From NCBI GenBank assembly GCA_018821305.1, contig JAHJMN010000177.1, positions 1 through 56,896 on the forward strand: a stretch of DNA of 56,896 bases, given 5' to 3'. The notes below the pieces were generated by a model that was given only the letters and a program-made list of their open reading frames with translations, made no database searches and had not been told where the DNA came from. Below, piece after piece: positions 920 through 36,029 of this stretch. The translations under genes and the position numbers were made by a program. The first letter of the stretch is position 1; each line of letters opens with the position of its first letter. Source of the DNA: Myxococcota bacterium (lineage in GTDB: Bacteria > Myxococcota_A > Polyangia > HGW-17).

Positions 920-1052
920 TAGTTACTGTCCTGAAATACCGAAAATCAAATTTTTCACCGATTTATTGCTCAGGACAGTAACCGCAAGGTGCTCAATTTA
1001 TTACTAGTGGCCTGTTAGGATTTTTAATAAAATCCTAACAGGCCACGAACTA
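920..1052 (-). repeat. GTCCTG element, copy A1 (5' leader of prx)
   Basis: A palindromic element with TA at both ends. The outer arm TTACTGTCCTGA (923-934) pairs with TCAGGACAGTAA (970-981). A second, perfect 18-bp hairpin follows: GTGGCCTGTTAGGATTTT (1007-1024) with its complement at 1029-1046. The end is CCACGAACTA. The linker CCGCAAGGTG is shared with the copies at 12.4, 22.1 and 56.6 kb. It occupies most of the gap upstream of prx. Confidence 0.85.
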
Positions 1053-1080
1053 TTTTAGACTCGTCTAACGGTCGAATACT

Positions 1081-1108
1081 ATCTTAATCCCCGAGTTTTA
1101 ATTGTCAA
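1081..1108 (-). promoter_or_regulatory. Candidate sigma-70 promoter for prx
   Basis: On the minus strand, a perfect TTGACA -35 box (1103-1108) is followed after 16 bases by TAAGAT (1081-1086). It reads toward the peroxiredoxin gene through element A1, giving a predicted leader of about 175 bases containing both hairpins. Based on box match only. Confidence 0.5.
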
Positions 1109-1188
1109 CGGCCCATTACAAAATTTTTCGGAAAAAAAACTCCATTATAGTTTTATTGCGGATATGCTTAAGATTAACTCATAGTTAA

Positions 1189-1593
1189 TCACCTGTACTT
1201 TTTTTTATCTTTGAGTTTTTTTCTAATTAACATATATCCTGCTAGTATTAAAAAAACTAGAATTGGAGCGATGGCTATTCTTAGAAGCCAAAACCATGGA
1301 GAAAAAACCATATCTTTATTTCCACATATATGGCCCTCTTTATCCGGACTTTTTTTACATCCTGGATAATACCCGCTTTCTAAACTGCAAAAACACCCGG
1401 CCATTGATTTACTTCCCTGACCATTTCCCCCACGCAGGGCTATTTTAATAAACTTGCCGCCAGATTTTTTGCAAATATTCTCACATCTTGCTTCGGCATA
1501 ATACTCATGGGCACTGCACTGACCAAAAAGAATTGCAATACATACACAAACGACGAAAACGTCTTCTATTTTTTCGAAAATATTCCTTTTCAT
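1189..1593 (-). CDS. Hypothetical Cys-rich membrane protein
   Basis: 134 residues. The N-terminus has a hydrophobic segment (about 12-27) that could be a signal peptide or membrane anchor. The middle is cysteine-rich (motifs CENICKKSGG, GCFCSLESGYYPGC, HICG). A second hydrophobic segment (about 99-122) is followed by a Lys-rich tail that would be cytoplasmic. The cysteine-rich part would lie in the periplasm and probably forms disulfides. No family was recognised and no good Shine-Dalgarno precedes the start, but the membrane topology is coherent and no competing ORF is better. Confidence 0.6.
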   Translation of the reverse strand: MKRNIFEKIEDVFVVCVCIAILFGQCSAHEYYAEARCENICKKSGGKFIKIALRGGNGQGSKSMAGCFCSLESGYYPGCKKSPDKEGHICGNKDMVFSPWFWLLRIAIAPILVFLILAGYMLIRKKLKDKKKYR

Positions 1594-3195: not shown

Positions 3196-4029
3196 TTAAC
3201 GTTTGTGGCGGGGGCGTTTTTCTTCGCGACGGGGAGGAGTGCGCTTCTCGACTTTACGGGGTGGTGTGCGTTTTTCAACTCGACGGGGAGGAGTGCGAAC
3301 ATGTTTTACAACGGTTTTACCCGGGCGATTGTGATGTTTTACTACTACGCGATCGGGGCCGCGGTGATGAACATGTTTTACAACGGTTCTTCCCGGAGTG
3401 TGGTGGTGACGATGAACTACTCTGGTGCGGGGTGTGTGATATCTTGTGTGATATCTTTTAACATGTCTGTGGTTGGGATATCTCGTGTGGAATGAGCGAT
3501 ATCTTGTTCTGTAAAGATTGTCGAGATAAATATAGTGTGATGGGTTTGAATAACCATATGCGGCTATGTCAGCGTTAACACGGGCGATACAAGCGTTGCG
3601 GTGACGACCATAGAGGTGATCACAGGAAACGATATAGAGGTGATCTCTGATAATGTTGTAACGGGCCCGGCTCAAACAGTTCACATAAGCATTCTGCTGC
3701 TGGTATTCTGAGGGAAATACAAGTTGAGAAGCGTGCGCTCTGCAGGTGTTTACAATTCTGGCACGGCGATGGGGACTGCGTACAAACCGATAACGGTTGT
3801 TTTCCAGGCAATTGCCATATTTTACATTGTAGGTAGTGCTATCCGGGGCTACGAGAGCTTCTGAAGCGGACCAGCAGGAATTGTAATGGTCGTCCGTGAG
3901 ATAATTAACATCATACCCTGTTGTCCAGCGGGTGTGAAGTCGAAGACGACGGTTGGCGTCGGCAGTTCCGGAAAAACCAGCGGCGACGGTGAAAAAGGCC
4001 AGTGCTGTTAGTAAAAAACGATTGAACAT
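3196..4029 (-). CDS. Secreted Arg/His-rich protein with C-terminal repeats
   Basis: 277 residues with a clear signal peptide (about 1-26, cleaved after a TADA-like site) and a GGAGG Shine-Dalgarno. The folded part (27-175) has six scattered cysteines and many Arg/Tyr residues. From about 180 onward the chain is extremely basic: RYHTRYHTPRTRVVHRHHH, then three VVKH-type repeats, then three copies of TPPR(R/K)(V/E)EKR. The exported location with a basic, low-complexity tail suggests binding to an anionic partner such as LPS, teichoic-like polymer, DNA or metal (His clusters). No family was recognised, so function is unknown. Confidence 0.75.
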   Translation of the reverse strand: MFNRFLLTALAFFTVAAGFSGTADANRRLRLHTRWTTGYDVNYLTDDHYNSCWSASEALVAPDSTTYNVKYGNCLENNRYRFVRSPHRRARIVNTCRAHASQLVFPSEYQQQNAYVNCLSRARYNIIRDHLYIVSCDHLYGRHRNACIARVNADIAAYGYSNPSHYIYLDNLYRTRYRSFHTRYPNHRHVKRYHTRYHTPRTRVVHRHHHTPGRTVVKHVHHRGPDRVVVKHHNRPGKTVVKHVRTPPRRVEKRTPPRKVEKRTPPRREEKRPRHKR

Positions 4030-4186: not shown

Positions 4187-5623
4187 TTAGAGCTTTCCTT
4201 TTAAAATGAAGGCTGCTGTATCTTTAATGACGCCTTCAAAAACATTGGAAGGTTTCATGTATTCTTCCGGGGAGGGTTTTCCTTTTCCTTCAATAAACAG
4301 ATGGTTTAAAGCCGGATAACTTTTGAAAATTACATTCTTTGATTTTCCAAATTCCTTTTTCCAGATGGCAAAATCTTCTTTGAATGTAACCTGATAATCT
4401 CGTTCCCCCTGAAGAATCAAAACTGGTTTCTTTACAGTTTTAAGGGTTTTAATGGGATCGTATTTGCGAAGATGCATCCAGTAGTAGGGGCGTCCAATAC
4501 CAAAAGGCAGTTTTGTGGATGGAGACTTTTCGTTAAGTTCCTTTGATTTAACGTAGCGGAGTTGCTGTTCAATTTCTTTGATTTTTGCGTGTTCTTCACT
4601 CGTAAGTTCTTTTTTAAGAGAAGCGAGATACTTCACCTGCTGCAGGGAAAGATCTTCTATGGGACGCGCGTTACCTGCCATCATTACAAAACCTGCTGCA
4701 TCGGATTTCTGCGCAATAAGCGGCATGGCATAAGCTCCGAGACTGTGACCTATAATGAAGATTTTTTTAGCGTCAATTCGCTTATCTATTTTCAACAGCT
4801 CAGCGGCACTGACAGCATCATCAACGGTTTCCTCTTCCAGTGTGAATTTTGCTTCTTTAGTGACCGCCAGACCGTGAAGTTTGGTGCGTTTATTGTAACG
4901 CAAAACCGCAATACCCATGGATGAAAGCCCATAAGCTATGTCACGGAACACTTTATTGGGACCAATACTTTCATCAAGATCATTGGGGCCGCTGCCATGC
5001 ACTAAGACCGCCGCAGGAAAGGGACCTTTACCTGCAGGGATAGTAAGTTCCCCCGTAAGTTCCCACTTTTTACCTTTGTTAACCAGAACCAGTTCCCGTT
5101 TAAAGGCATCCTTTTTAACGTAGGATGCATCTTTGAAATTTTTATACTCAACTGGTCGGGGAGACAGGAAAAAGCCAATGACTTTTTCATCAAGGTTCCA
5201 GGCCACTTTGAAGTCCATTTTTATTTTTTCAAATTCCGCATGGACGAGATATCGTCGAAAAGTACCCTTGTCTACTATGGTAACACCTGAAATCTGCTTG
5301 AATTTTCCTAAATCCTTCTTGACTGAATCCCATCCGCTTTTCATTTTCTCAACGGTGAGCATGGACTGAACTTTTTTATCTAGAAGCTTGCTTACATCTT
5401 CGTATTTACCTTCCAGATATAGATTGACAAGTTCTTTGGATTTATCCGTGAGATCCCTGCGCTGAGGTATTTTTACCGTTTTGGGATCGTCGCTTTTTAC
5501 CGCTTTTTTATTGTCGGGCTTTACGGTTTTTGGGGCAGGATTTTTATCCTTTTCCGTTTCTTTTTTTGAACACCCGGCAAGGAAAACTGCAGTTATCAGA
5601 AGTATTATTGAGGGAACTCTCAT
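4187..5623 (-). CDS. Lipoprotein with DUF3887-like and alpha/beta hydrolase domains
   Basis: 478 residues from an ATG after AAAGGAG. A longer frame begins inside palindromic repeat B1 and is rejected. The lipobox FLAGC gives a lipidated Cys18. A charged linker is followed by a DUF3887-like domain (about 55-155) and an alpha/beta hydrolase domain (about 175-475). The nucleophile is Ser294 in GHSLG. The acid is probably Asp409 in GERDYQV and the base His441 in PALNHLF; the oxyanion-region motif HGSGPND is also present. DUF3887 often precedes such hydrolases. It should act at the membrane surface facing the periplasm on an ester or peptide-like substrate. Candidate promoter at 5800-5828 and the B1 element form its leader. 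Confidence 0.88.
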   Translation of the reverse strand: MRVPSIILLITAVFLAGCSKKETEKDKNPAPKTVKPDNKKAVKSDDPKTVKIPQRRDLTDKSKELVNLYLEGKYEDVSKLLDKKVQSMLTVEKMKSGWDSVKKDLGKFKQISGVTIVDKGTFRRYLVHAEFEKIKMDFKVAWNLDEKVIGFFLSPRPVEYKNFKDASYVKKDAFKRELVLVNKGKKWELTGELTIPAGKGPFPAAVLVHGSGPNDLDESIGPNKVFRDIAYGLSSMGIAVLRYNKRTKLHGLAVTKEAKFTLEEETVDDAVSAAELLKIDKRIDAKKIFIIGHSLGAYAMPLIAQKSDAAGFVMMAGNARPIEDLSLQQVKYLASLKKELTSEEHAKIKEIEQQLRYVKSKELNEKSPSTKLPFGIGRPYYWMHLRKYDPIKTLKTVKKPVLILQGERDYQVTFKEDFAIWKKEFGKSKNVIFKSYPALNHLFIEGKGKPSPEEYMKPSNVFEGVIKDTAAFILKGKL

Positions 5624-5640
5624 GATTTTCTCCTTTTGCA

Positions 5641-5796
5641 TAGTTAGTGTCCTGTAATACCGGATTCTTAGATATAGAACGATTTTCACACAGGACATTA
5701 AAAATGAAGACTCAGAAATTATTGGAGTGTTCTGAATAGCATGTTTTCTTAAACATGCTCAATTTTGACAAAAATTGATTTTCAGGACAGTAATTA
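5641..5796 (-). repeat. GTCCTG element, copy B1 (5' leader of hydrolase)
   Basis: It starts TAGTTAGTGTCCTG and ends CAGGACAGTAATTA. The left hairpin pairs TTAGTGTCCTGT (5644-5655) with ACAGGACATTAA (5690-5701). The right half has AGCATGTTT/AAACATGCT (5738-5759) and TCAATTTT/AAAATTGA (5759-5778). It is related to copies at 22.3, 36.8, 54.9 and 56.8 kb. It starts 17 bases upstream of the lipoprotein hydrolase start. Confidence 0.85.
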
Positions 5797-5828: not shown

Positions 5829-5879
5829 CCATCATTATAACTAATGGAAATATTGTTTTTCCGGAAGGTTCCAGGTGAA

Positions 5880-6551
5880 ATGAACAGACGAACATTTCTG
5901 AAATACGGCTCATTTTCTTTTCTTCTCTCGCAGATCGGCTGCCGAAGTGTCGACCATACAGGCACTTTAAAAAACCATGAAAAACAATTAATTGACAGCA
6001 ATCCGAATATTGTGACTGTAGGGCCTGAAAATTCCCGGGGCGATACGTCCCTGAGACGCAAATCCCACCGCGCTGCCCATCTTACATCTGCAGAGCTCAT
6101 GAAAATCGATCATGTGATGAGGGCACGGCTGAAGAAAAGTGGAGGCGTCGGTCTGGCGGCTCCTCAAATCGGGCTTAACCGCAGGATTTTCCTTGTAATG
6201 CTCCAGAATCAGAAAAAGGAGATCATTACCTGTATCGATCCTGTGATAGTGGAAAAAAGCGTCGAAAAAGAAGACGGTTACGAAGGTTGTCTGAGCATTC
6301 CTGGTTTCGGAGCCCTCGTTCCCCGTCACAGTTCACTGAAAGTCACGTTTTCCGATCGCAAAGGCACCCCAAAAACCCTCTCGGTAAAAGGTTTTGAAGC
6401 ACGCATTTTCCAGCATGAATACGATCACCTTGAAGGAGTGCTCTATATCGATAAAATCAAGGGAAAACTCCTCCCCTGGGAAGAAGTAAAACGCCTGAGA
6501 AGTCAAACCGCCAGCGTGGAACGCCCTGATGACCCCCACATCCTGATTTAG
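5880..6551 (+). CDS. Peptide deformylase with twin-arginine signal
   Basis: 223 residues. The ATG at 5880 is chosen because the protein then begins MNRRTFLKYGSF, a near-ideal Tat motif (RRxFLK), followed by a short hydrophobic stretch and a Cys at 21 (SQIGC, an imperfect lipobox). All three deformylase motifs are intact: GVGLAAPQIG (about 89-98), EGCLS with metal ligand Cys137, and QHEYDHLEG with His179, Glu180 and His183. The family removes N-formyl groups from nascent proteins in the cytosol, usually in about 170-190 residues without a leader. Here about 65 extra residues precede the domain. It may act outside the cytoplasm, loaded with metal before Tat export. No fmt or other translation gene is adjacent. 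A cytosolic start at a later codon cannot be excluded. Confidence 0.87.
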   Translation: MNRRTFLKYGSFSFLLSQIGCRSVDHTGTLKNHEKQLIDSNPNIVTVGPENSRGDTSLRRKSHRAAHLTSAELMKIDHVMRARLKKSGGVGLAAPQIGLNRRIFLVMLQNQKKEIITCIDPVIVEKSVEKEDGYEGCLSIPGFGALVPRHSSLKVTFSDRKGTPKTLSVKGFEARIFQHEYDHLEGVLYIDKIKGKLLPWEEVKRLRSQTASVERPDDPHILI

Positions 6552-6600: not shown

Positions 6601-6890
6601 ACAACATCGTATAATAATTACAGGAAAACAGGAAGTCAGGAAAACAGGGACAGGAGCAGGGCGTTTACTTTGAAGGTAAGTGTTTTTGTGGCATAAAGAC
6701 CGCTTTCGTATGCGGTCAAGACCGCTTTCAGAGTAATACGATAGTAAATTAATTTAATGAAATACTTCAGGAGAAAGCCCCTGATTTCCCTGTTCCTGCT
6801 ACTGATTTCCTGATTTCCTGCCTGCCTGTTTAAAAATCAAGCCATGGGACTGGCAATCAATCCCTTAACGAAGCGCAAGCCCAGGTAAAC
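6601..6890. repeat. Two abutting GACCGCTT/CCTG elements, copy C2
   Basis: A CAGG-rich half (6621-6660) leads to GGGCGTTTACTTTGAAGGTAAG, which recurs in reverse at 47.35-47.4 kb. GACCGC (6698-6703) and GCGGTC (6712-6717) form a small palindrome at the junction. The second unit starts AAGACCGCTTTCAGAGTAATACGATAG and continues with a CCTG-rich tract to about 6815. The region between peptide deformylase and the thioredoxin lipoprotein holds no gene. Confidence 0.7.
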
Positions 6891-7381
6891 TATAGATATC
6901 TTTTGAGGGATTTGAGGAGGTCGGAAGCGTTGGACAGGCCTCGATGAACTTCACGGATCTGACCTTTTTTATCAATAATCAGGGTATGGGGAATTCCCCT
7001 GGGTTTGAAACGATCAGGCATTTCAGCCATTTTTGCCCAGAGAGTTTTGTCATCCAGACATACTTTGATGTTTTTGTGATTAATTTTCGCTTTGACTTTA
7101 TCTGCCACAGCAACACCGCCGCGAGCGTGGACACTTAAAATGGCAACCTCTGCAGGATTGATTTTTTCCGCAAGGATTTGAAGTTCGGCAGCCTGTTTAA
7201 TGCAGTAAGGACATGATAATGACCACAGTTCAAGTAAAACGACTTTTCCTTTTTCCCCACTGAGGGTGCATTTTGAACCGTCAGCGGCGGGAATATCAAA
7301 GTCAGGAGCTTTGTGGGGTTTGGGTTTACTGCAGGAAAAAGCAGTGATGGAAAGGGCAAGTAATACAATAATTTTCTTCAT
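6890..7381 (-). CDS. TlpA/ResA-like thioredoxin lipoprotein
   Basis: 163 residues with lipobox TAFSC (Cys17) and a Shine-Dalgarno AAAAGGA. The thioredoxin fold carries the redox motif SCPYC (Cys57, Cys60) and the cis-proline segment RGIPHTL. Such membrane-anchored periplasmic oxidoreductases reduce disulfides, for example during cytochrome c maturation. It is a close relative of the C-terminal domain of the next gene (7448-8485): shared ADGSKC/DDGAKC, CPxCxKQA and LS(I/V)H features point to tandem duplication. No cytochrome maturation gene is nearby, so the client is unknown. Confidence 0.88.
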   Translation of the reverse strand: MKKIIVLLALSITAFSCSKPKPHKAPDFDIPAADGSKCTLSGEKGKVVLLELWSLSCPYCIKQAAELQILAEKINPAEVAILSVHARGGVAVADKVKAKINHKNIKVCLDDKTLWAKMAEMPDRFKPRGIPHTLIIDKKGQIREVHRGLSNASDLLKSLKRYL

Positions 7382-7447: not shown

Positions 7448-8485
7448 TCAGCGGCTGACAAATCTGGAAAGTTGTCTTTCAATATAATCTGATGTTTTGT
7501 AGCCGCGGATAACACTGCGGATAACACCGTGCTGATCGAGAATCAGCATATGAGGAACTCCACGCAACCTCTGATATTTTGGGAGTTTACTGTAAACCCG
7601 GGAAACAGTTCCATCATCGTAGCAGAGCTTAACCTTCGGGTTTGTCATAACAGCCTTTGCACCACCCTGGGCACGAAGACCCCCGGAAGTGTGAATACTT
7701 AAATAAGTTACTTTATCGCCGAATTTCTCTACTACTTTATCAAGTTCCTTCGCCTGCTTACGGCAATGAGGACAGGTAGTGCGCCAGAATTCAATGAGAA
7801 CTGTTTTGCCTTTTTCAGCTTTAAGATCGCATTTAGCCCCATCATCGGAGGGTAATACAAACTCGGGAGCTTTAATGAAATATGGCATTGAGGAAATTGC
7901 GGGATACCACACTACGCCAACTAAAGCAGCGGCAACGATTATGGACCAGCCGATGGAAAAGGGTTTTTTAATGGGCGACTCTTCTCCGGGGTCTTTACGT
8001 CTGCCGAAGTAATGATTCATGATAATCGCGAGGGCGATAAGGCCCTGACCATAGGCCACAGCCTGGGGAATTTCCATGTACGGAAGGGGATAGTAAATAA
8101 GTTTTGGAAAAAGCCTCGGAACGGCTTCGAGAAAAGTACGGATAAGAATCGCACTCATCCAGGCACTCATGGTAATTTCGAACCTTTTTCTCACTGACAG
8201 CTTTTTAACTGCCAGTAAAGATACGAAAATAATCAATAAAGGCATAAAATCTTTTATAAAAAATACTTTTACAATGTACCATAACTCCGGAAAGATAGCA
8301 CCGGCACCGACTTTTGATACAATTTCGCCCATCTGCACAAAATTAAAGGCATAAGCTCCGAGAAGAATTAGCGCAATAAATAAAAGCAAGCAGGAAGTGA
8401 AACTGGATTTTTCATTATCCACATCGGAAATTTTGCGATCCAGTAGAAAACAGGAATTAAGAAAATCTACACATATATATTTCAT
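7448..8485 (-). CDS. Multi-spanning membrane protein with periplasmic thioredoxin domain
   Basis: 345 residues. The N-terminal half has about five hydrophobic segments (roughly 31-51, 69-93, 105-120, 142-160, 178-197), an arrangement that recalls Yip1-type membrane domains, though that is uncertain. The C-terminal half (205-345) is a TlpA-like thioredoxin domain with TTCPHC (Cys238, Cys241) and a cis-proline in RGVPHML. It is a paralogue of the neighbouring lipoprotein fused to a membrane domain, and both probably serve the same periplasmic redox task. Only 66 bases separate them. The start has no strong Shine-Dalgarno and could be a few codons off. Confidence 0.83.
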   Translation of the reverse strand: MKYICVDFLNSCFLLDRKISDVDNEKSSFTSCLLLFIALILLGAYAFNFVQMGEIVSKVGAGAIFPELWYIVKVFFIKDFMPLLIIFVSLLAVKKLSVRKRFEITMSAWMSAILIRTFLEAVPRLFPKLIYYPLPYMEIPQAVAYGQGLIALAIIMNHYFGRRKDPGEESPIKKPFSIGWSIIVAAALVGVVWYPAISSMPYFIKAPEFVLPSDDGAKCDLKAEKGKTVLIEFWRTTCPHCRKQAKELDKVVEKFGDKVTYLSIHTSGGLRAQGGAKAVMTNPKVKLCYDDGTVSRVYSKLPKYQRLRGVPHMLILDQHGVIRSVIRGYKTSDYIERQLSRFVSR

Positions 8486-15905: not shown

Positions 15906-16439
15906 TTGGATAAAAAAAAGAAACTTATAATTTTTCTAGCCATTGCCCTCAGTTCCTTTGCCGTTGACATCGGCAGCAAACTCTGGGCTCAGAAGGCTGT
16001 AGCCCAAAAATACATGAATCCGGACAGTCAGAGTTCCTTTTCTATAAATTTCAATTTGGCTTTCAATAAGGGCTCAGCTTTCAGTTTTCTTTCCGGAGTA
16101 TCCGGAAGTCGCTGGATTCTCACTGTAATCAATTTTTTTGCTCTTGGTTTCATCTATTATCTTTATCGCCGGAAGGAATCGGAAGATCGCATTTTTCTCA
16201 TCGGTCTTGCTTTTATCACCGGTGGTGCTCTCGGCAATATGATTGACCGAATAATATTTGGTCACGTTACTGATTTTATTCAATTCTGGGGTTTTAAATC
16301 CGTTAAAATGATGTGGCCCTGGCCCACGTTCAATGTGGCGGATATAGTCCTTGTAATCGGCGTTGGACTCATGCTAATATATTCATTCAGAGCGGATGCT
16401 GCAGAAAAAAAGGATAAAAAGAAAACGGTTAAAGCATAA
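15906..16439 (+). CDS. lspA: Lipoprotein signal peptidase (signal peptidase II)
   Basis: 177 residues starting at TTG after GTGGGAGGA. This inner-membrane aspartyl peptidase cleaves signal peptides from prolipoproteins after lipidation, serving the many lipoproteins in this window. Four membrane segments are present. The catalytic aspartates are Asp123 (GHVTDFIQF) and Asp146 (FNVADIVLV); the conserved NxxDR (GNMIDR) and FN motifs are intact. It overlaps the next gene by one base (TAATG), so the two are translationally coupled. Confidence 0.94.
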   Translation: MDKKKKLIIFLAIALSSFAVDIGSKLWAQKAVAQKYMNPDSQSSFSINFNLAFNKGSAFSFLSGVSGSRWILTVINFFALGFIYYLYRRKESEDRIFLIGLAFITGGALGNMIDRIIFGHVTDFIQFWGFKSVKMMWPWPTFNVADIVLVIGVGLMLIYSFRADAAEKKDKKKTVKA

Positions 16440-23269: not shown

Positions 23270-23372
23270 TGGTTTTTGCCACTCAAGTGGACAACAATAT
23301 CCCGGTTTAAGTATTTGATAATAAATCAAATAAATTCTTTCTGCTGGATATTGAAAAAAAGGTAGGTTGAAA

Positions 23373-24323
23373 GTGATAAAAGTTGAAAATGTTTCCAAGT
23401 TTTATGGTTCTTTCAAAGCACTCGACAATGTGAGTTTCCGCATAGGAAAAGGTGAAGTTGTGGGTTTTCTTGGACCAAATGGGGCAGGAAAGACCACAAC
23501 TTTGAAAATCCTGACGTGTAATTCATATCCCCATTCAGGAAATGTTATGGTGGCGGGAAATGACGTTTTATACGATGAAATTGGTGTACAGAATTCCATC
23601 GGCTATCTTCCTGAATCCGCCCCAGTTTACAAAGACATGCTGGTGTGGGAATACTTGCGTTTCATGGGAAGTGCCAGAGGGTTACACGGTAAGGAACTCA
23701 ATACTGCCATTTTACGTGTTGCATCAGAAACAGGAATTTCCGATCGACTCAAAACACCTGTAGCTCACCTTTCCAAGGGCTACCGTCAGAGAGTCGGTCT
23801 TGCTCAAGCTTTGATTCATTCACCACGGGTTTTGATTCTGGACGAACCATATACCGGTCTTGATCCCATTCAGATAATTGAAATCCGCAATCTCATTAAA
23901 GAGTATGGAAAGACTCATACAGTTCTCCTTTCTTCTCATATTTTGCAGGAAGTAGAAGCCTCCTGCAGCAGAGTTTTAATTATTAACCGGGGAAAAATCG
24001 TTGCGGACAGCCCAACAGATGAACTGCTGAACAAAAATACAGTTCATGCTTGTATTTCAGGCCCGGATCCTGAAATCAGAAAGACTTTTCAATCAATGAC
24101 AGGCGTTATTTACCTCGGTGACAGTAACGTATCATCAACAAAGGGAACTTATTTCAATATTCGCCTCAAATCGGAGAAACTATCCAGAGAAGAGCTTTCA
24201 GAAACAGTGTTTAATAAAGTTACTGAAGCGGGCTGGAAACTTATTTCTCTGGGAGAGGGTAGTGTAACGTTTGAAGATCTCTTCATTTCCTTGACTAAAA
24301 AAGAAACTGAGGAAGAAAAATGA
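23373..24323 (+). CDS. ABC-2 type transporter ATPase (GldA-like)
   Basis: 316 residues from GTG, chosen because AGGTAGG lies six bases upstream; a TTG two codons earlier abuts the Shine-Dalgarno. ATP-binding subunit with Walker A GPNGAGKTT (34-42), signature LSKGYRQ (133-139), Walker B VLILDEP (153-159) and the H-loop in LLSSHILQ. The start IKVENVSKFYGSFKALDNVSF is typical. It powers the permease encoded next; the set resembles the gliding-associated GldA-GldF-GldG group found also in non-gliding bacteria. It overlaps the permease gene by four bases. Confidence 0.92.
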   Translation: MIKVENVSKFYGSFKALDNVSFRIGKGEVVGFLGPNGAGKTTTLKILTCNSYPHSGNVMVAGNDVLYDEIGVQNSIGYLPESAPVYKDMLVWEYLRFMGSARGLHGKELNTAILRVASETGISDRLKTPVAHLSKGYRQRVGLAQALIHSPRVLILDEPYTGLDPIQIIEIRNLIKEYGKTHTVLLSSHILQEVEASCSRVLIINRGKIVADSPTDELLNKNTVHACISGPDPEIRKTFQSMTGVIYLGDSNVSSTKGTYFNIRLKSEKLSREELSETVFNKVTEAGWKLISLGEGSVTFEDLFISLTKKETEEEK

Positions 24324-25216
24324 GCGATAAAAATAAAAATACCGGTGAAATCAAAGAATTGGACCAGAAAAAGTCCGGTTCAAATAAAACTATGGAACCC
24401 GATAAGAAAAAATCTGCCGAGTTAAAAACGACAACAAAAGATGCCAGAACAGGTGAAGTTGCCGTATACAGGAAAGCTTGTGGTTTTTCTTACCATTTTC
24501 GTTCCTTTCTTACTATTCTGGGCAAAGAAACCCGTTCTTTTTTTAATACGCCCATGGCATATATCATTCTCTCTGGTTTTGTGCTCCTGACATCATGGCT
24601 TTTCTTTGAAACATTCTGGCTTCGGAATGAAGCCAGCGCAAGACCTCTTTTCGACGCCCTCCCGAAGATTTTCCTGATCATTACGCCCCTTGTTACAATG
24701 AAAATGTGGGCGGAGGAATATTCTACAGGAACCCATGATCAACTCATGAGTCTACCTGTAAATCCAGCCATCACGGTAATGGGAAAGATTACAGCCTGCC
24801 TTTCTATAATTTTAATGGCACTCATACTCACACTTCCGTACCCAATTGTAGCATCAGTGTATGGCAATCTGGATTGGGGGCCCGTTTGGGGAGGCTACCT
24901 CGGGGCACTTTTACTCGGCCTTGCTTATGCTTCCGTAGGTTTGTTTATATCGAGTCTCACTAGAACTCAAGTAGAAGCGGCTTTTGTAACACTTTTCGTA
25001 GCTGGCTTTTTCTATTTCATAGGTGAATCCAATGTATTGGAGAATTTCAGTTCTTCAAATACAACTTATATACTCGGTCAAATAGGTCTTGGCTCAAGAT
25101 TCCGTAATATCAGCAGAGGTGTTCTGGATATCAGGGATCTTGTTTACTACGCCAGTTTTTCAGCACTTTTCATAGTTGTTAACGTTGCTGTTCTCAGACA
25201 CAGAAAGTGGATGTAA
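24320..25216 (+). CDS. ABC-2 transporter permease (GldF-like)
   Basis: 298 residues. A long charged N-terminal extension (about 1-50, Lys/Asp/Glu repeats such as EPDKKKS) precedes the membrane domain. About six membrane segments follow, with the conserved KETRSFFNTPMAYIIL entry and the MKMWAEEYSTGTHDQLMSLPV cytoplasmic loop that is typical of GldF-type permeases. It works with the ATPase encoded upstream. The stop is 12 bases before the gldG-like gene, which has its own AAGGA Shine-Dalgarno. The basic/acidic extension is unusual for this family and could be a linker to a cytosolic partner. Confidence 0.9.
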   Translation: MSDKNKNTGEIKELDQKKSGSNKTMEPDKKKSAELKTTTKDARTGEVAVYRKACGFSYHFRSFLTILGKETRSFFNTPMAYIILSGFVLLTSWLFFETFWLRNEASARPLFDALPKIFLIITPLVTMKMWAEEYSTGTHDQLMSLPVNPAITVMGKITACLSIILMALILTLPYPIVASVYGNLDWGPVWGGYLGALLLGLAYASVGLFISSLTRTQVEAAFVTLFVAGFFYFIGESNVLENFSSSNTTYILGQIGLGSRFRNISRGVLDIRDLVYYASFSALFIVVNVAVLRHRKWM

Positions 25217-25228
25217 AGGACGAAAACG

Positions 25229-27286
25229 ATGAACAGAAAATACATTTTTTTAATTAATACTTGGGCAACGGTTCTCCTTTTAGGAGCAAACCTTTTACTT
25301 TTCAATGTTATCTTTTCAAGATTCACCGCCGGCAGAATTGACATTACACAGTATAAGGAACATTCCCTTTCTCCTCATACGTTAAAAACCATCCGTGGAC
25401 TGCCAGACAAAGTCGAAATTATCGGTGTTTTTTCCACAAATACTCACAGGCTTTTAAAGCCATTAATCCCGAGAATCCGTGATTTACTGGAGAGTTATGC
25501 TCAAGAGTCAAGTGGTCATGTCGCTGTAGATCTCATGAATCCATCTTCCGATAAGACTATCAAGCATCTCTATGAGGAATTTGGAATAAAACCCTTCCCT
25601 GTTCCCCTGGAGTCTAAATATAAAAAAGAAGTAAAAAGCATTTATTTCAACATTATAATCAAGTACGGAGATCAAACAGTAAAGTATGTTCTTGATGACA
25701 TGATTGATGTTTCTGAAACCGCAGGTGAACTTACGGTAAAACTAAAAGATATGGAGCAATTGCTTACAAAAGGAATTAAGAAGGCCTCCACCAGTTTTAC
25801 CAGTATTGACAGTGCTCTTGCCGCTGCGGCCCAACCAGTTTCTATAACTTTTTACCGTGTTCCCAAAGAATTTCTGACTCAAATCCCTGAAAAAGATCGT
25901 AAATCCATTGATGAAGCAGGGGTTAAGCTAAAAAAAGCCATTGAAAAATATGGTAAAAATACGATTCAATATAAAGAGGAAGAAACTAAACTGCGAGATA
26001 AAATACTCAACGTCGAAATTTCATTTCTTAAAAAGAAGGTTATGTTCCCACTATTTTTAGAAACAGCTGATGTTTCCAAAAGTGATGTAGCTGAAAACCT
26101 TGAAGCAGGCTTGAAAAGAGTTCTCCCGGGTTTCACCAGAACTCTGGGTCTTGCCCTTCCCCCTCCAGATTTTGATCCTCAAATGGCCCGATTTGGAAGG
26201 CAACCTCCTCCATCAGAATTTGCTGCTCTTGAAAGCCTCCTGCAAAGTGAGTACGAAGTTAAAAATATTGATCTTTCCTCAGGCAAACCGCCTATCGAAG
26301 TTGAAGTTCTTCTAGTTGCAAGACCAGAAAACTACAAAGAAAAAGAATTGTTTGCCATTGATCAGTATATTATGCTTGGTGGGCGCGTTATTTTCTTCAT
26401 GGATTCCAGTAAATTGGATATTCAGGCTTTACAAGCAGGCAAACTTTCAATTAAACCTGTAAAATCTGGTTTGAATGAGATGCTTGAAAGTTGGGGTGTA
26501 AAAGTTGTAGATCAGGTCCTTTCCGATGAAAACAATTACCCATATCCTCTTCCAAGAGAAATTCAACCAGGCCTGCCTGTCATCGAAGAGGTTCCTTATC
26601 CTTACTTTGTAAAAATTGTGGCGCCCAAGGGTCATGGGGCAGTCAATAATCTTGCAGAGCTGTACTTTTTATGGCCTGCAGTTCTTGAAACTAAAAAAGT
26701 CTCCGGACTTACAATCAAATCAATGGTTGAAAGTTCATCCAAATCCTGGCTTCAGCCGATAACAGGAAAAGGTCTTGACGTTACGCCCAGTCACGGGATG
26801 AAAAATTCATCAAATATTGCAACAAAACCTTACACACTGGCAGTTTCTGTATCCGGAAAATTCACGTCTTTCTTTAAAGGGAAGTCATCGCCTCTTGATA
26901 AAAAAGGCGGCCCAGAAGATAAGCGAAATCCAAAGACTGACAACAAAACGTCAAAAGAAAGCGTTAAACCTGAAGGCCGACGGGATGAAAGTTCAAATAG
27001 CAGGATAATTGTCGTTTCTGATTCAGATATCATAAGTGAAGTAGCAATGAAGATCCTTGAGCGAAGTTATCAGTTTAATCTGAAATTCCTGTCAAATCTT
27101 CTTGAATGGATTCAAAGCGATGATGAAGAATTTGTGACATCTGCAAAGGGTCTTCCAAGACCGCTTCAAGAAATGTCTGAAAGTAAGAAGTCATTTGTCC
27201 AGCATTCTATCTGGATTGGGTCTTTATTGTTTTTAATTTTACTATTCCTGATTACCCACATTCTCAGAAGGAGGGTAAACTTATGA
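25229..27286 (+). CDS. GldG-like ABC-associated protein
   Basis: 685 residues. One N-terminal membrane segment (about 6-27), a large periplasmic part and a final membrane segment (about 660-681) before a basic tail RRRVNL. The start RFTAGRIDITQYKEHSLSPHTLKTIRGL and the VEVLLVARPENYKEKELFAIDQYIMLGGRVIFFMD segment match the GldG/ABC_transp_aux family. In gliding bacteria it is part of an ABC complex needed for motility and secretion; elsewhere its role is not settled. A Lys/Pro-rich insert (about 545-590) lies near the C-terminus. It overlaps the DUF4340 gene by four bases. Confidence 0.9.
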   Translation: MNRKYIFLINTWATVLLLGANLLLFNVIFSRFTAGRIDITQYKEHSLSPHTLKTIRGLPDKVEIIGVFSTNTHRLLKPLIPRIRDLLESYAQESSGHVAVDLMNPSSDKTIKHLYEEFGIKPFPVPLESKYKKEVKSIYFNIIIKYGDQTVKYVLDDMIDVSETAGELTVKLKDMEQLLTKGIKKASTSFTSIDSALAAAAQPVSITFYRVPKEFLTQIPEKDRKSIDEAGVKLKKAIEKYGKNTIQYKEEETKLRDKILNVEISFLKKKVMFPLFLETADVSKSDVAENLEAGLKRVLPGFTRTLGLALPPPDFDPQMARFGRQPPPSEFAALESLLQSEYEVKNIDLSSGKPPIEVEVLLVARPENYKEKELFAIDQYIMLGGRVIFFMDSSKLDIQALQAGKLSIKPVKSGLNEMLESWGVKVVDQVLSDENNYPYPLPREIQPGLPVIEEVPYPYFVKIVAPKGHGAVNNLAELYFLWPAVLETKKVSGLTIKSMVESSSKSWLQPITGKGLDVTPSHGMKNSSNIATKPYTLAVSVSGKFTSFFKGKSSPLDKKGGPEDKRNPKTDNKTSKESVKPEGRRDESSNSRIIVVSDSDIISEVAMKILERSYQFNLKFLSNLLEWIQSDDEEFVTSAKGLPRPLQEMSESKKSFVQHSIWIGSLLFLILLFLITHILRRRVNL

Positions 27287-28494
27287 AAAAAATTAATATT
27301 ATTCTGATTGCTGTTTTAGCCGTACAGATTATCATATGGACACTTCTTCCTTCAAGAAATGCCGTTTTCGGAGCAAAGAAAGTATCCATTGTTACAGACT
27401 TGGATTCGAAATCTGTTGCACGCATAGTAATCGCAAAACCTGGTACAAAAGACAGGGTTACTCTTGTGAAAAATGGAAAAAAATGGCAGATAGTTGAAGC
27501 CTTTAATTTCGATGCAGATCAGACAAAAATATATGAAATTCTTGCTGTTATTCCCAATCTCAAGTCGGCGCAGATAGTAAGTGAAAATAAATCCATGTTC
27601 ACCAATTATGGCCTTGGCGACAACCCCGAATGGGAAATTGTATTTTCCGATGCCGCAAATAAAGAACTGGTGAACCTCTATGTTGGCAAATCTCTGGTGA
27701 AAGGCACTTTTGTCCGACGTAAAAATGAGGAGCGCATATACCGCATATCCGGCTCCCTGAGCAGCAATTTATACAGTAAAGCAAAAGATTTCTTTGAAGA
27801 CACTAACCTGAAACTGCCCCCGGTGAAAGATCGGGAATCAATTAATGTGTCTTTCAACAACTCATCAATAACACTTAAAAAAACAAAAGCTGGTGGGGCC
27901 TCCGTTGGAATAGACGGCCAACTGACCAATGTTCAGGATGAATGGTCTTTACTTAATGAATCTCTGCAGATTGATCCTACAGGAGATTCAACAAAGATCC
28001 GTGAGTTTGTCAGTAGTTTTGATTCCATCAATTTTGAAGGCGTCGAAGGTACAACTCCTTCACCTGCCATGGGGCTTACAAACCCATACCTGACAATTGT
28101 AATAACCGGAACTGGCGAAGTAACCAAAAAGGCCGTTTCACTTACTATTAAAATTGGAAGTATTAAGAGCGGAAATAAATCAAAAGCTCGATACGCATCC
28201 ATTTCAAACAGCGAGTTCATTTATCTTCTGGATCCCCTCGTATTTGAAAAATGGACGACAAAAAGATCTGAACTCACAGGCAAACCCAAACCGACAGCGG
28301 AAGAAGATCTGAACAAAAAAATCGGAGATATGAAAATTCCAGAAACCAAACTTGACCTTAAAACTCCGGTTCCCGATACTAAAGATGCGGAAAAATCAAT
28401 AATTCGTCCGGCAGTTATGGCACCTCCCCCAGTTAAAAATCCTGCAGTTATGGCACCCCCAGCAGGAAATCCCCCCCCAATGGCAACAAAGTAG
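27283..28494 (+). CDS. DUF4340 domain protein
   Basis: 403 residues. An N-terminal membrane anchor (about 4-20), then DUF4340-type beta domains: VARIVIAKPGTKDRVTLVKNGKKWQI and NYGLGDNPEWEIVFSD. The C-terminus is Pro-rich with near repeats of PAVMAPP and NPAVMAPP. DUF4340 proteins usually follow GldG-like genes and are thought to belong to the same membrane complex. It is the last gene of a four-gene run with ATGA overlaps, so all four products are made together. The long gap that follows contains a palindromic element. Confidence 0.9.
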   Translation: MKKINIILIAVLAVQIIIWTLLPSRNAVFGAKKVSIVTDLDSKSVARIVIAKPGTKDRVTLVKNGKKWQIVEAFNFDADQTKIYEILAVIPNLKSAQIVSENKSMFTNYGLGDNPEWEIVFSDAANKELVNLYVGKSLVKGTFVRRKNEERIYRISGSLSSNLYSKAKDFFEDTNLKLPPVKDRESINVSFNNSSITLKKTKAGGASVGIDGQLTNVQDEWSLLNESLQIDPTGDSTKIREFVSSFDSINFEGVEGTTPSPAMGLTNPYLTIVITGTGEVTKKAVSLTIKIGSIKSGNKSKARYASISNSEFIYLLDPLVFEKWTTKRSELTGKPKPTAEEDLNKKIGDMKIPETKLDLKTPVPDTKDAEKSIIRPAVMAPPPVKNPAVMAPPAGNPPPMATK

Positions 28495-34640: not shown

Positions 34641-36029
34641 CTATCCTTCAGAAGTATCTGTTTCAGATAAGAATTTCTTTTTACGGAGTTTTTCGACTAG
34701 AGTAGTTCGGTTCATACTGAGTAGTGAAGCTGCTTTATTGCGATTACCACCGGTCATATCAAGGGCCTGAACAATCATGTTGTTTTCAAATTCCTCAAGA
34801 GCTTCCCGAAGATTGACACCCTGATCCGTGAGTTTCATAGAAAATCCGGAACCCATTTCCAGAGAATTATCCATTGAACCTGCCATGTATACTGGAAGAT
34901 CCTGAGAGCATATATTTCCACTTCTTTTTATAATTACAAGTCTTTCAACAAGATTTTCCAGTTCCCTGATATTTCCTGGCCATTGATATGACATTAAAAT
35001 CTTTTCAACTTCTTCTGTTATTCCTTCGATTTCTCTTCCTGTAGCTGAATTGAATCTTTTCCTGAAAAAATCGAAGAGAAGCAATATATCATAAGGCCGT
35101 TCCCTCAATGCTGGTAGTTCAATAGGAATAACATTCAACCTGTAGTAGAGATCATTTCTAAAATTACCGGATTTTATTGCTTCCTCCAGATTAATATTCG
35201 TCGCTGCAATTATTCTGACATCCGCTTTTTGAGGTCTGGCTTCCCCAACAGGATTAAACTCCTTTTGCTGCAAGACTCGCAGGAGCTTCACCTGAAGACT
35301 TGGGGTCATTTCACCTATTTCATCTAGAAAAACTGTTCCACCACTGGCCTGAGCAAACACACCTGGTCTTGAAGCAATTGCTCCTGTAAATGCACCTTTT
35401 ATGTGTCCGAATAGTTCACTCTCAAGCAAATTATCAGGAATAGCACCACAGTTTACTGGAATGAAAGGTCCCATATTTCTAAGACTTTTTTCATGGATAT
35501 AGCGGGCTATTACTTCTTTTCCAGTCCCTGTTTCACCGGTAATTAGTACGGTTGAATCGGTATCGGCTACACTCTGGGCCATTTCCAGAACTTTAAGAAA
35601 AGAAGGATCTTCTCCAATAATCCCGGTTTCTACTGAAGTACTTTTTTGTTTTCTTTCTTGTTTTTCCGTTTTTGGTTTAATACCAAGCGCTTTTGCTTTT
35701 ATGATCTGCTCGACATCGGATCTTTTCAGCGGTTTAACAAGGGCGTTTGCAGCCCCGGATCTTAAAGCGTCCCGGACTTCTTCCCATTCAAATTTTTTTC
35801 CCGTAAAAACAACTGGAATATCAACCTCAAAATCATTAATAAAACCAACGGCACCTGAAATATTTTTATCAATGAAAACAATCTCTATTTCATATTCATT
35901 TTCAATGATTTCGATAATTTCAGCCGTATCTACAGCAGTTATTACATCAAAACCTATAGTTCTGAGCAGCCGTGATAATGGTTCTCTATCGTGATAATGT
36001 GAATCAGCTACAATTGCACGGGGTGCCAT
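34641..36029 (-). CDS. NtrC-family sigma-54-dependent response regulator
   Basis: 462 residues. The receiver domain (1-115) keeps phospho-acceptor Asp54 (FIDKN), Thr76 and Lys99 (VKPLK), though the N-terminal acidic pair is partly replaced (VADSHYHD). The AAA+ domain (about 138-370) has Walker A GETGTGKE (165-172), the sigma-54-contacting GAFTGA (212-217) and Walker B VFLDEIGE. A Fis-type helix-turn-helix ends the protein (MTGGNRNKAASLLSMNRTTLVEKL). It activates sigma-54 promoters when phosphorylated. No histidine kinase gene is adjacent, so it is an orphan regulator here. Confidence 0.94.
   Translation of the reverse strand: MAPRAIVADSHYHDREPLSRLLRTIGFDVITAVDTAEIIEIIENEYEIEIVFIDKNISGAVGFINDFEVDIPVVFTGKKFEWEEVRDALRSGAANALVKPLKRSDVEQIIKAKALGIKPKTEKQERKQKSTSVETGIIGEDPSFLKVLEMAQSVADTDSTVLITGETGTGKEVIARYIHEKSLRNMGPFIPVNCGAIPDNLLESELFGHIKGAFTGAIASRPGVFAQASGGTVFLDEIGEMTPSLQVKLLRVLQQKEFNPVGEARPQKADVRIIAATNINLEEAIKSGNFRNDLYYRLNVIPIELPALRERPYDILLLFDFFRKRFNSATGREIEGITEEVEKILMSYQWPGNIRELENLVERLVIIKRSGNICSQDLPVYMAGSMDNSLEMGSGFSMKLTDQGVNLREALEEFENNMIVQALDMTGGNRNKAASLLSMNRTTLVEKLRKKKFLSETDTSEG

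Follow-up and report, generated by a model that had tools for sequence, protein, structure and literature searches.

The gene at 5880..6551 (+) of the window, which is the whole stretch of 56,896 nucleotides of Myxococcota DNA that was analysed, encodes a peptide deformylase (PDF) of 223 amino acids that is very probably an exported lipoprotein. Deformylation is seen as a step that accompanies translation in the cytosol. The best overall explanation for this gene, with a chance somewhat above even, is a PDF that is exported, anchored in the cell envelope and unblocks formyl-peptides outside the cytoplasm. It also appears likely that some Myxococcota have a dedicated extracytoplasmic deformylation by an envelope-anchored PDF, which reaches its place through Tat or Sec and evolved more than once. 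If the clade of the window protein is truly committed to export, formyl removal also takes place outside the cytoplasm. Exported PDFs would then be a tangible entry point to the handling of formyl-peptides by bacteria; such peptides act as potent immune signals and are poorly cleaved by aminopeptidases.

The window protein is a member of the peptide deformylase family by every feature tested. The coordinates of the open reading frame were confirmed, and its product starts with MNRRTFLKYGSFSFLLSQIGC. A second in-frame ATG lies upstream at 5844, and its use would merely extend the n-region of the leader. The Pfam domain PF01327 matches residues 54-195 (6039..6464, +) with 142.6 bits against a cut-off of 22.8, and the NCBIfam model TIGR00079 scores 129.9 against a cut-off of 103.95. 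The required motifs G-phi-G-phi-AAPQ, EGCLS, and HExDH are found in the sequence and its alignment as GVGLAAPQ (motif 1, residues 89-96, 6144..6167, +), EGCLS (motif 2, residues 135-139, 6282..6296, +), which holds the metal ligand Cys137, and HEYDH (motif 3, residues 179-183, 6414..6428, +), which holds further metal ligands and the catalytic Glu180. The original prediction had described the metal and catalytic residues as intact, and Cys137, His179, Glu180, and His183 are indeed present and invariant in a 16-sequence alignment of relatives. The AF2 model of the protein has a mean pLDDT of 87, with the leader and the C-terminal tail poorly defined. A Foldseek comparison of this model with solved PDFs gave the PDF fold at E values of about 1e-14 and TMt up to 0.92 (for example 3uwa, TMt 0.92, rmsd 1.6), and the solved structures nearest in sequence are deformylases. 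Fold, metal site, and the three motifs are thus like those of Def (PF01327), as represented by the E. coli PDF 4az4 and the Synechococcus phage S-SSM7 PDF 3uwa. Judged from these sequence features, the protein is highly likely to be an active deformylase.

The leader peptide comprises residues 1-20 (5880..5939, +), in which an n-region of MNRRTFLK is followed by a short hydrophobic stretch, and it is conserved in the clade. It had been proposed that the protein starts close to the SRRxFLK consensus; the leader was confirmed, with the twin arginines at residues 3 and 4 (codons 5886..5891, +). MNRRTFLK is a close but imperfect match to the Tat motif (S/T)RRxFLK, with N before the arginine pair, and similar motifs occur in relatives (SRRNFLKF in L087, LNRRNFIKY in L086). 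The arginine pair is kept in the near orthologues L085, L086, L087, L089, L090, and L091. Tat is the export route that we infer for the window's lineage. The codon of Cys21 (5940..5942, +) marks the predicted lipidation site. Cys21, which had been named earlier as a possible lipidation residue, is an invariant column in the 16-member alignment, and a leader ending in a lipobox cysteine is found in 16/16 aligned relatives and in 31/31 clade members. The lipobox of the window protein itself (S-Q-I-G-C) is weak at position -3, where it has Gln. It falls short of the lipoboxes in related proteins and escaped the crude automatic leader rule, so the assignment of this protein as a lipoprotein leans on the orthologues. 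Lipidation, envelope location and the choice of membrane are accordingly put forward as predictions for this protein.

A start codon downstream of the leader would make the protein an ordinary cytosolic deformylase, and a GTG codon is present between the leader and the domain. This reading is hardly credible, since the leader features are kept at the protein level in diverged orthologues, the genome has separate leaderless deformylases, and a Shine-Dalgarno-like AGGTGA/GGAAGGT lies upstream of the ATG at 5880. A wrong start codon was rejected on leader conservation together with the separate leaderless PDFs. The original prediction of an exported deformylase is supported by the conserved leader, and none of the three results named against it was seen: the gene is not the only deformylase gene of its genome, the near orthologues do not lack the arginine pair, and orthology places the translation start upstream of this motif rather than downstream of it.

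Orthologues with a twin-arginine leader in the same genus or family begin with MNRRIFLKYSMLSTVFAALSC (L085, 54% identical overall), LNRRNFIKYFGAASLAGLAVAC (L086), DSRRNFLKFFGTTTLGLAVAAC (L087), and LSRRNFISISLAGLFLPAC (L089). A leader is also found elsewhere in the class (MKRRDFLTITSTVGAAALVGC, L093). A plain Sec-type lipoprotein leader occurs within the window's own family (MSRLSCLLLPVFFFSC, L088), and further leaders of this type are MHAVRQVVGTLALLLLLGC (L097) and MRLVICALLGLLLVGC (L099). A maximum-likelihood tree of 94 rows was built from the catalytic domain alone, with leaders excluded. A simple rule gave each protein its leader label, and before the tree was made the labels of L083, L091, L111, L123, and L192 were changed manually; for L083, L111, and L192 the reason was that the automatic flag was considered to reflect upstream read-through. 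The 31 leadered Myxococcota PDFs form one clade with a support of 100/99, and no leaderless row falls inside it. All 31 members carry a hydrophobic leader that ends in cysteine. In control PDFs a leader is essentially never found, and the few automatic flags among them are upstream read-through, except for L126, L226, and L234. A leader in every clade member and essentially never in the controls is more than chance would give.

The twin-arginine motif is present in about half of the clade leaders, and the rest resemble Sec lipoprotein leaders. For the three labels (twin-arginine, Sec-type, and none), the tree requires 6 changes compared with 29.7 in shuffles. The interchange of twin-arginine and Sec leaders indicates that export itself is the retained trait, and the idea does not depend on Tat because the route switches while the lipobox cysteine stays throughout the clade. 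Most simply, export would be ancestral to the clade and retained, with the route switching between Tat and Sec several times. The predicted Tat signal therefore stands for the window's lineage and fails as a clade-wide trait, for which the lipobox cysteine is conserved instead; Tat as the conserved trait was dropped in favour of lipoprotein export in view of the Sec-type leaders inside the clade. The clade may be a useful system in which to study how lipoprotein leaders exchange Tat for Sec and back.

Lipoprotein PDFs also occur outside this clade. L126 (G104) lies within a leaderless group on the tree, suggesting that export arose independently in it. L126/L235 (G104:C12) and L226 (G316:C353) are lipoprotein PDFs of a different PDF subgroup, with a leader beginning MTRGAWVLGLVVVACGG; L226 resembles L126, and the tree included L126 and not L226. 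L234 (G035:C173:56300-59200, frame 637-1804, -) combines the lipoprotein leader MTHRYTDYTTFLCCLAIFWASSC with a long additional N-terminal region ahead of a diverged PDF domain, and a similar frame is found at G027:C115. L126, L226, and L234 are apparently genuine independent lipoprotein PDFs within the same phylum. On these sequences, G035 appears to have two kinds of exported PDF, and G027 probably does so as well.

When 379 genomes of the phylum were searched with a profile of the group, 12 of them scored about 180 bits or more, and below these the scores dropped to 145. In the class, a clade member is present in 24/318 genomes. The profile scores clade members from the phylum and class surveys at about 1e-50 or better, and no match at E 1e-48 was obtained in 398 genomes of Pseudomonadota (the phylum of a Methylobacter MAG). 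The view that the gene is a plain accessory PDF carried by a mobile element was rejected, as all plasmid matches are less than 60% identical. Among the plasmid matches listed, most begin at about residue 60, and the best one (Streptomyces, H1/L220) is without a lipoprotein leader.

The source genome has three PF01327 genes including the window gene. The other two are leaderless and start right at the domain, with MSILPVVKYPQPILQERS in L001 and MEILQFGEPRLREKTTEV in L003. This bears out the suggestion that a second, leaderless deformylase should be looked for, and the idea that the window gene encodes the sole deformylase of the cell was ruled out. Among the genomes with a leadered PDF, all 13 with a completeness of 90% or more and a contamination of 5% or less have two or three PDFs, so translation need not rely on the exported enzyme. 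A single PDF that is leadered was seen only in the incomplete genomes G004 (88%), G005 (73%), and G012 (65%). The source genome has one fmt gene, TatC and TatA, and several Lgt genes. The lipoprotein signal peptidase LspA, a further part of the lipoprotein machinery, is encoded in the window outside the PDF locus (15906..16439, +). Small exported proteins encoded at 1189-1593 (-) of the window and 996-1322 (-) of L003 share the cysteine pattern CENIC...GC.C; the one in L003 directly adjoins a leaderless PDF, and the one in the window lies about 4 kb from the exported PDF.

Aminopeptidases cannot act on a formylated N-terminus. At the ribosome, SRP prevents deformylation, and the formyl group can persist on N-out inner-membrane proteins (PMC5454389); the role of this retention, if any, is stated there as not known. 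Since N-formyl-methionine ends are expected outside the cytoplasm and the formyl group blocks aminopeptidases, the favoured role is to unblock formyl-peptides so that they can be turned over or scavenged. In the proposed mechanism, the PDF would leave the cytoplasm via Tat in the window's lineage, folded and with its metal bound, and would be lipidated on Cys21 and anchored in the cell envelope, most likely in the outer membrane. There it would strip formyl groups from N-formyl-methionine peptides or proteins. Its substrates, which we infer to be formyl-peptides outside the cytoplasm, may be pieces of exported or inner-membrane proteins that left the ribosome with their formyl group, as well as peptides from lysed neighbours. 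With the formyl block gone, exported peptidases and aminopeptidases could digest these peptides. Such a role in peptide turnover has roughly an even chance of being correct. The favoured ranking places unblocking for turnover first, maturation of N-out proteins second, other formylated compounds third, and resistance to inhibitors fourth.

In the second of these explanations, the enzyme would mature the cell's own N-out inner-membrane proteins by deformylating those periplasmic N-termini that SRP had shielded. Formylated N-termini of N-out proteins are documented (PMC5454389), and export would put the enzyme on the correct side of the membrane. The location within the envelope points elsewhere. 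By the E. coli sorting rule, Asp after the lipidated Cys speaks against the outer membrane. The residue after the leader Cys is Asp in just 1/31 clade members, which suggests an outer-membrane location of the clade proteins, as far as the E. coli rule, which may not hold here, can be carried over. By this analogy, an outer-membrane location would fit soluble peptides better than inner-membrane N-termini as substrates. The linker from Cys21 to the domain is only about 30 residues long in the window protein. Moreover, N-out membrane proteins are universal, whereas the enzyme is found in no more than 24/318 genomes of the class. Maturation is therefore considered unlikely.

The surroundings of the active site are divergent. 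Tyr134 precedes the Glu of motif 2 in the window protein, where E. coli has Glu87 (PMC12690207), and the equivalent of Arg97 is Gly144 (aligned through 3qu1), with mostly Gly at this position across the clade. These differences could fit a different substrate, such as an N-formylated sugar, lipid, or secondary metabolite of the envelope. Such a substrate is improbable, because fold and motifs match an ordinary peptide deformylase and there was no sign of sugar or secondary-metabolite genes among the tested neighbours. The Arg97 position also bears on protection from natural PDF inhibitors such as actinonin, for which the exported protein might act as an envelope decoy or as a resistant isozyme. 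Accessory PDFs can give actinonin resistance, and in V. cholerae Def2 the loss of Arg97 is the key change that lowers actinonin binding (PMC12690207). The Gly at this position in the window protein and most of the clade agrees with a resistant isozyme, yet an exported isozyme cannot replace the cytosolic PDF. Losing the Arg97 contact should also make a poorer decoy, and the catalytic residues, needless for a decoy, are all kept. Inhibitor protection is thus very improbable, and unblocking of formyl-peptides remains the preferred role.

The bacterial PDFs known so far work at the ribosome exit in the cytosol, whereas the window PDF has a predicted export leader and lipidation cysteine and occurs alongside leaderless PDFs. 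Accessory PDFs, among them V. cholerae Def2 and the PDFs of integrons and plasmids, likewise represent an extra def gene with Arg97 replaced, but those tested support growth from the cytosol (PMC12690207), in contrast to the predicted export of the window PDF. The plant enzymes PDF1A and PDF1B (1zxz, 3m6o) share with the window PDF a PDF domain behind an N-terminal targeting sequence. The plant PDFs are imported into an organelle that makes formylated proteins, whereas the window PDF would leave the compartment of translation. The largest recent survey of accessory PDFs covered copy number, plasmids, integrons, and inhibitor resistance in 5,042 genomes, and a text search of its main text found no mention of a signal peptide on a PDF or of an exported or lipoprotein PDF (PMC12690207). 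No exported, secreted, periplasmic, or lipoprotein PDF was found in the open-access literature that was searched. Within that literature, the Myxococcota proteins appear to be members of a known enzyme family that are new by their location.

The window PDF gene is alone on its strand and divergent from the gene at 4187..5698 (-), which encodes a lipoprotein with the leader MRVPSIILLITAVFLAGC, a DUF3887 domain, and an S9/S33-type alpha/beta hydrolase domain according to Pfam. G001 and G002 have this divergent pair too, and the DUF3887-S9/S33 gene is the only neighbour found in common between the G001 and G002 stretches and the first 16 kb of the window. In G046, the PDF start codon and the stop codon of an M2 (ACE-like) peptidase gene, which has a lipoprotein-like leader, overlap. 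In G012, a secreted Extensin-like_C protein is encoded directly downstream, overlapping the end of the PDF gene frame, and a similar protein is found directly downstream in G008 (the Pfam match was tested in G012). Genes for exported peptidases or hydrolases thus lie beside the PDF gene in several separate lineages. PDF neighbours differ among lineages, and other clade members have unrelated ones, including non-peptidases such as phosphofructokinase in L004/L145 and a helicase in L158. The neighbourhood supports, without proving, a link of the exported PDF with extracytoplasmic hydrolysis.

Several other genes near these PDFs were observed. Two adjacent exported or membrane thiol proteins of the TlpA/AhpC-TSA-like type (6890-7381 and 7448-8485, both -) lie beside the window PDF, and a DsbA-like lipoprotein adjoins the PDF of G002. 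A sigma-54 response regulator at 34641-36029 (-) of the window has a start nearly identical to that of a regulator in G001 (L144, 6282-7655); the latter directly adjoins the exported PDF, and the window counterpart is 28 kb away. An ABC transporter cluster at 23367-28494 (+), composed of an apparent ATPase, an ABC-2 permease, and ABC_transp_aux/DUF7088 and DUF4340 proteins, resembles the gliding-type Gld ABC modules. The gene at 3196-4029 (-) encodes a secreted protein that is rich in His and Arg, contains repeated KRTPPR-like units, and has no Pfam match.
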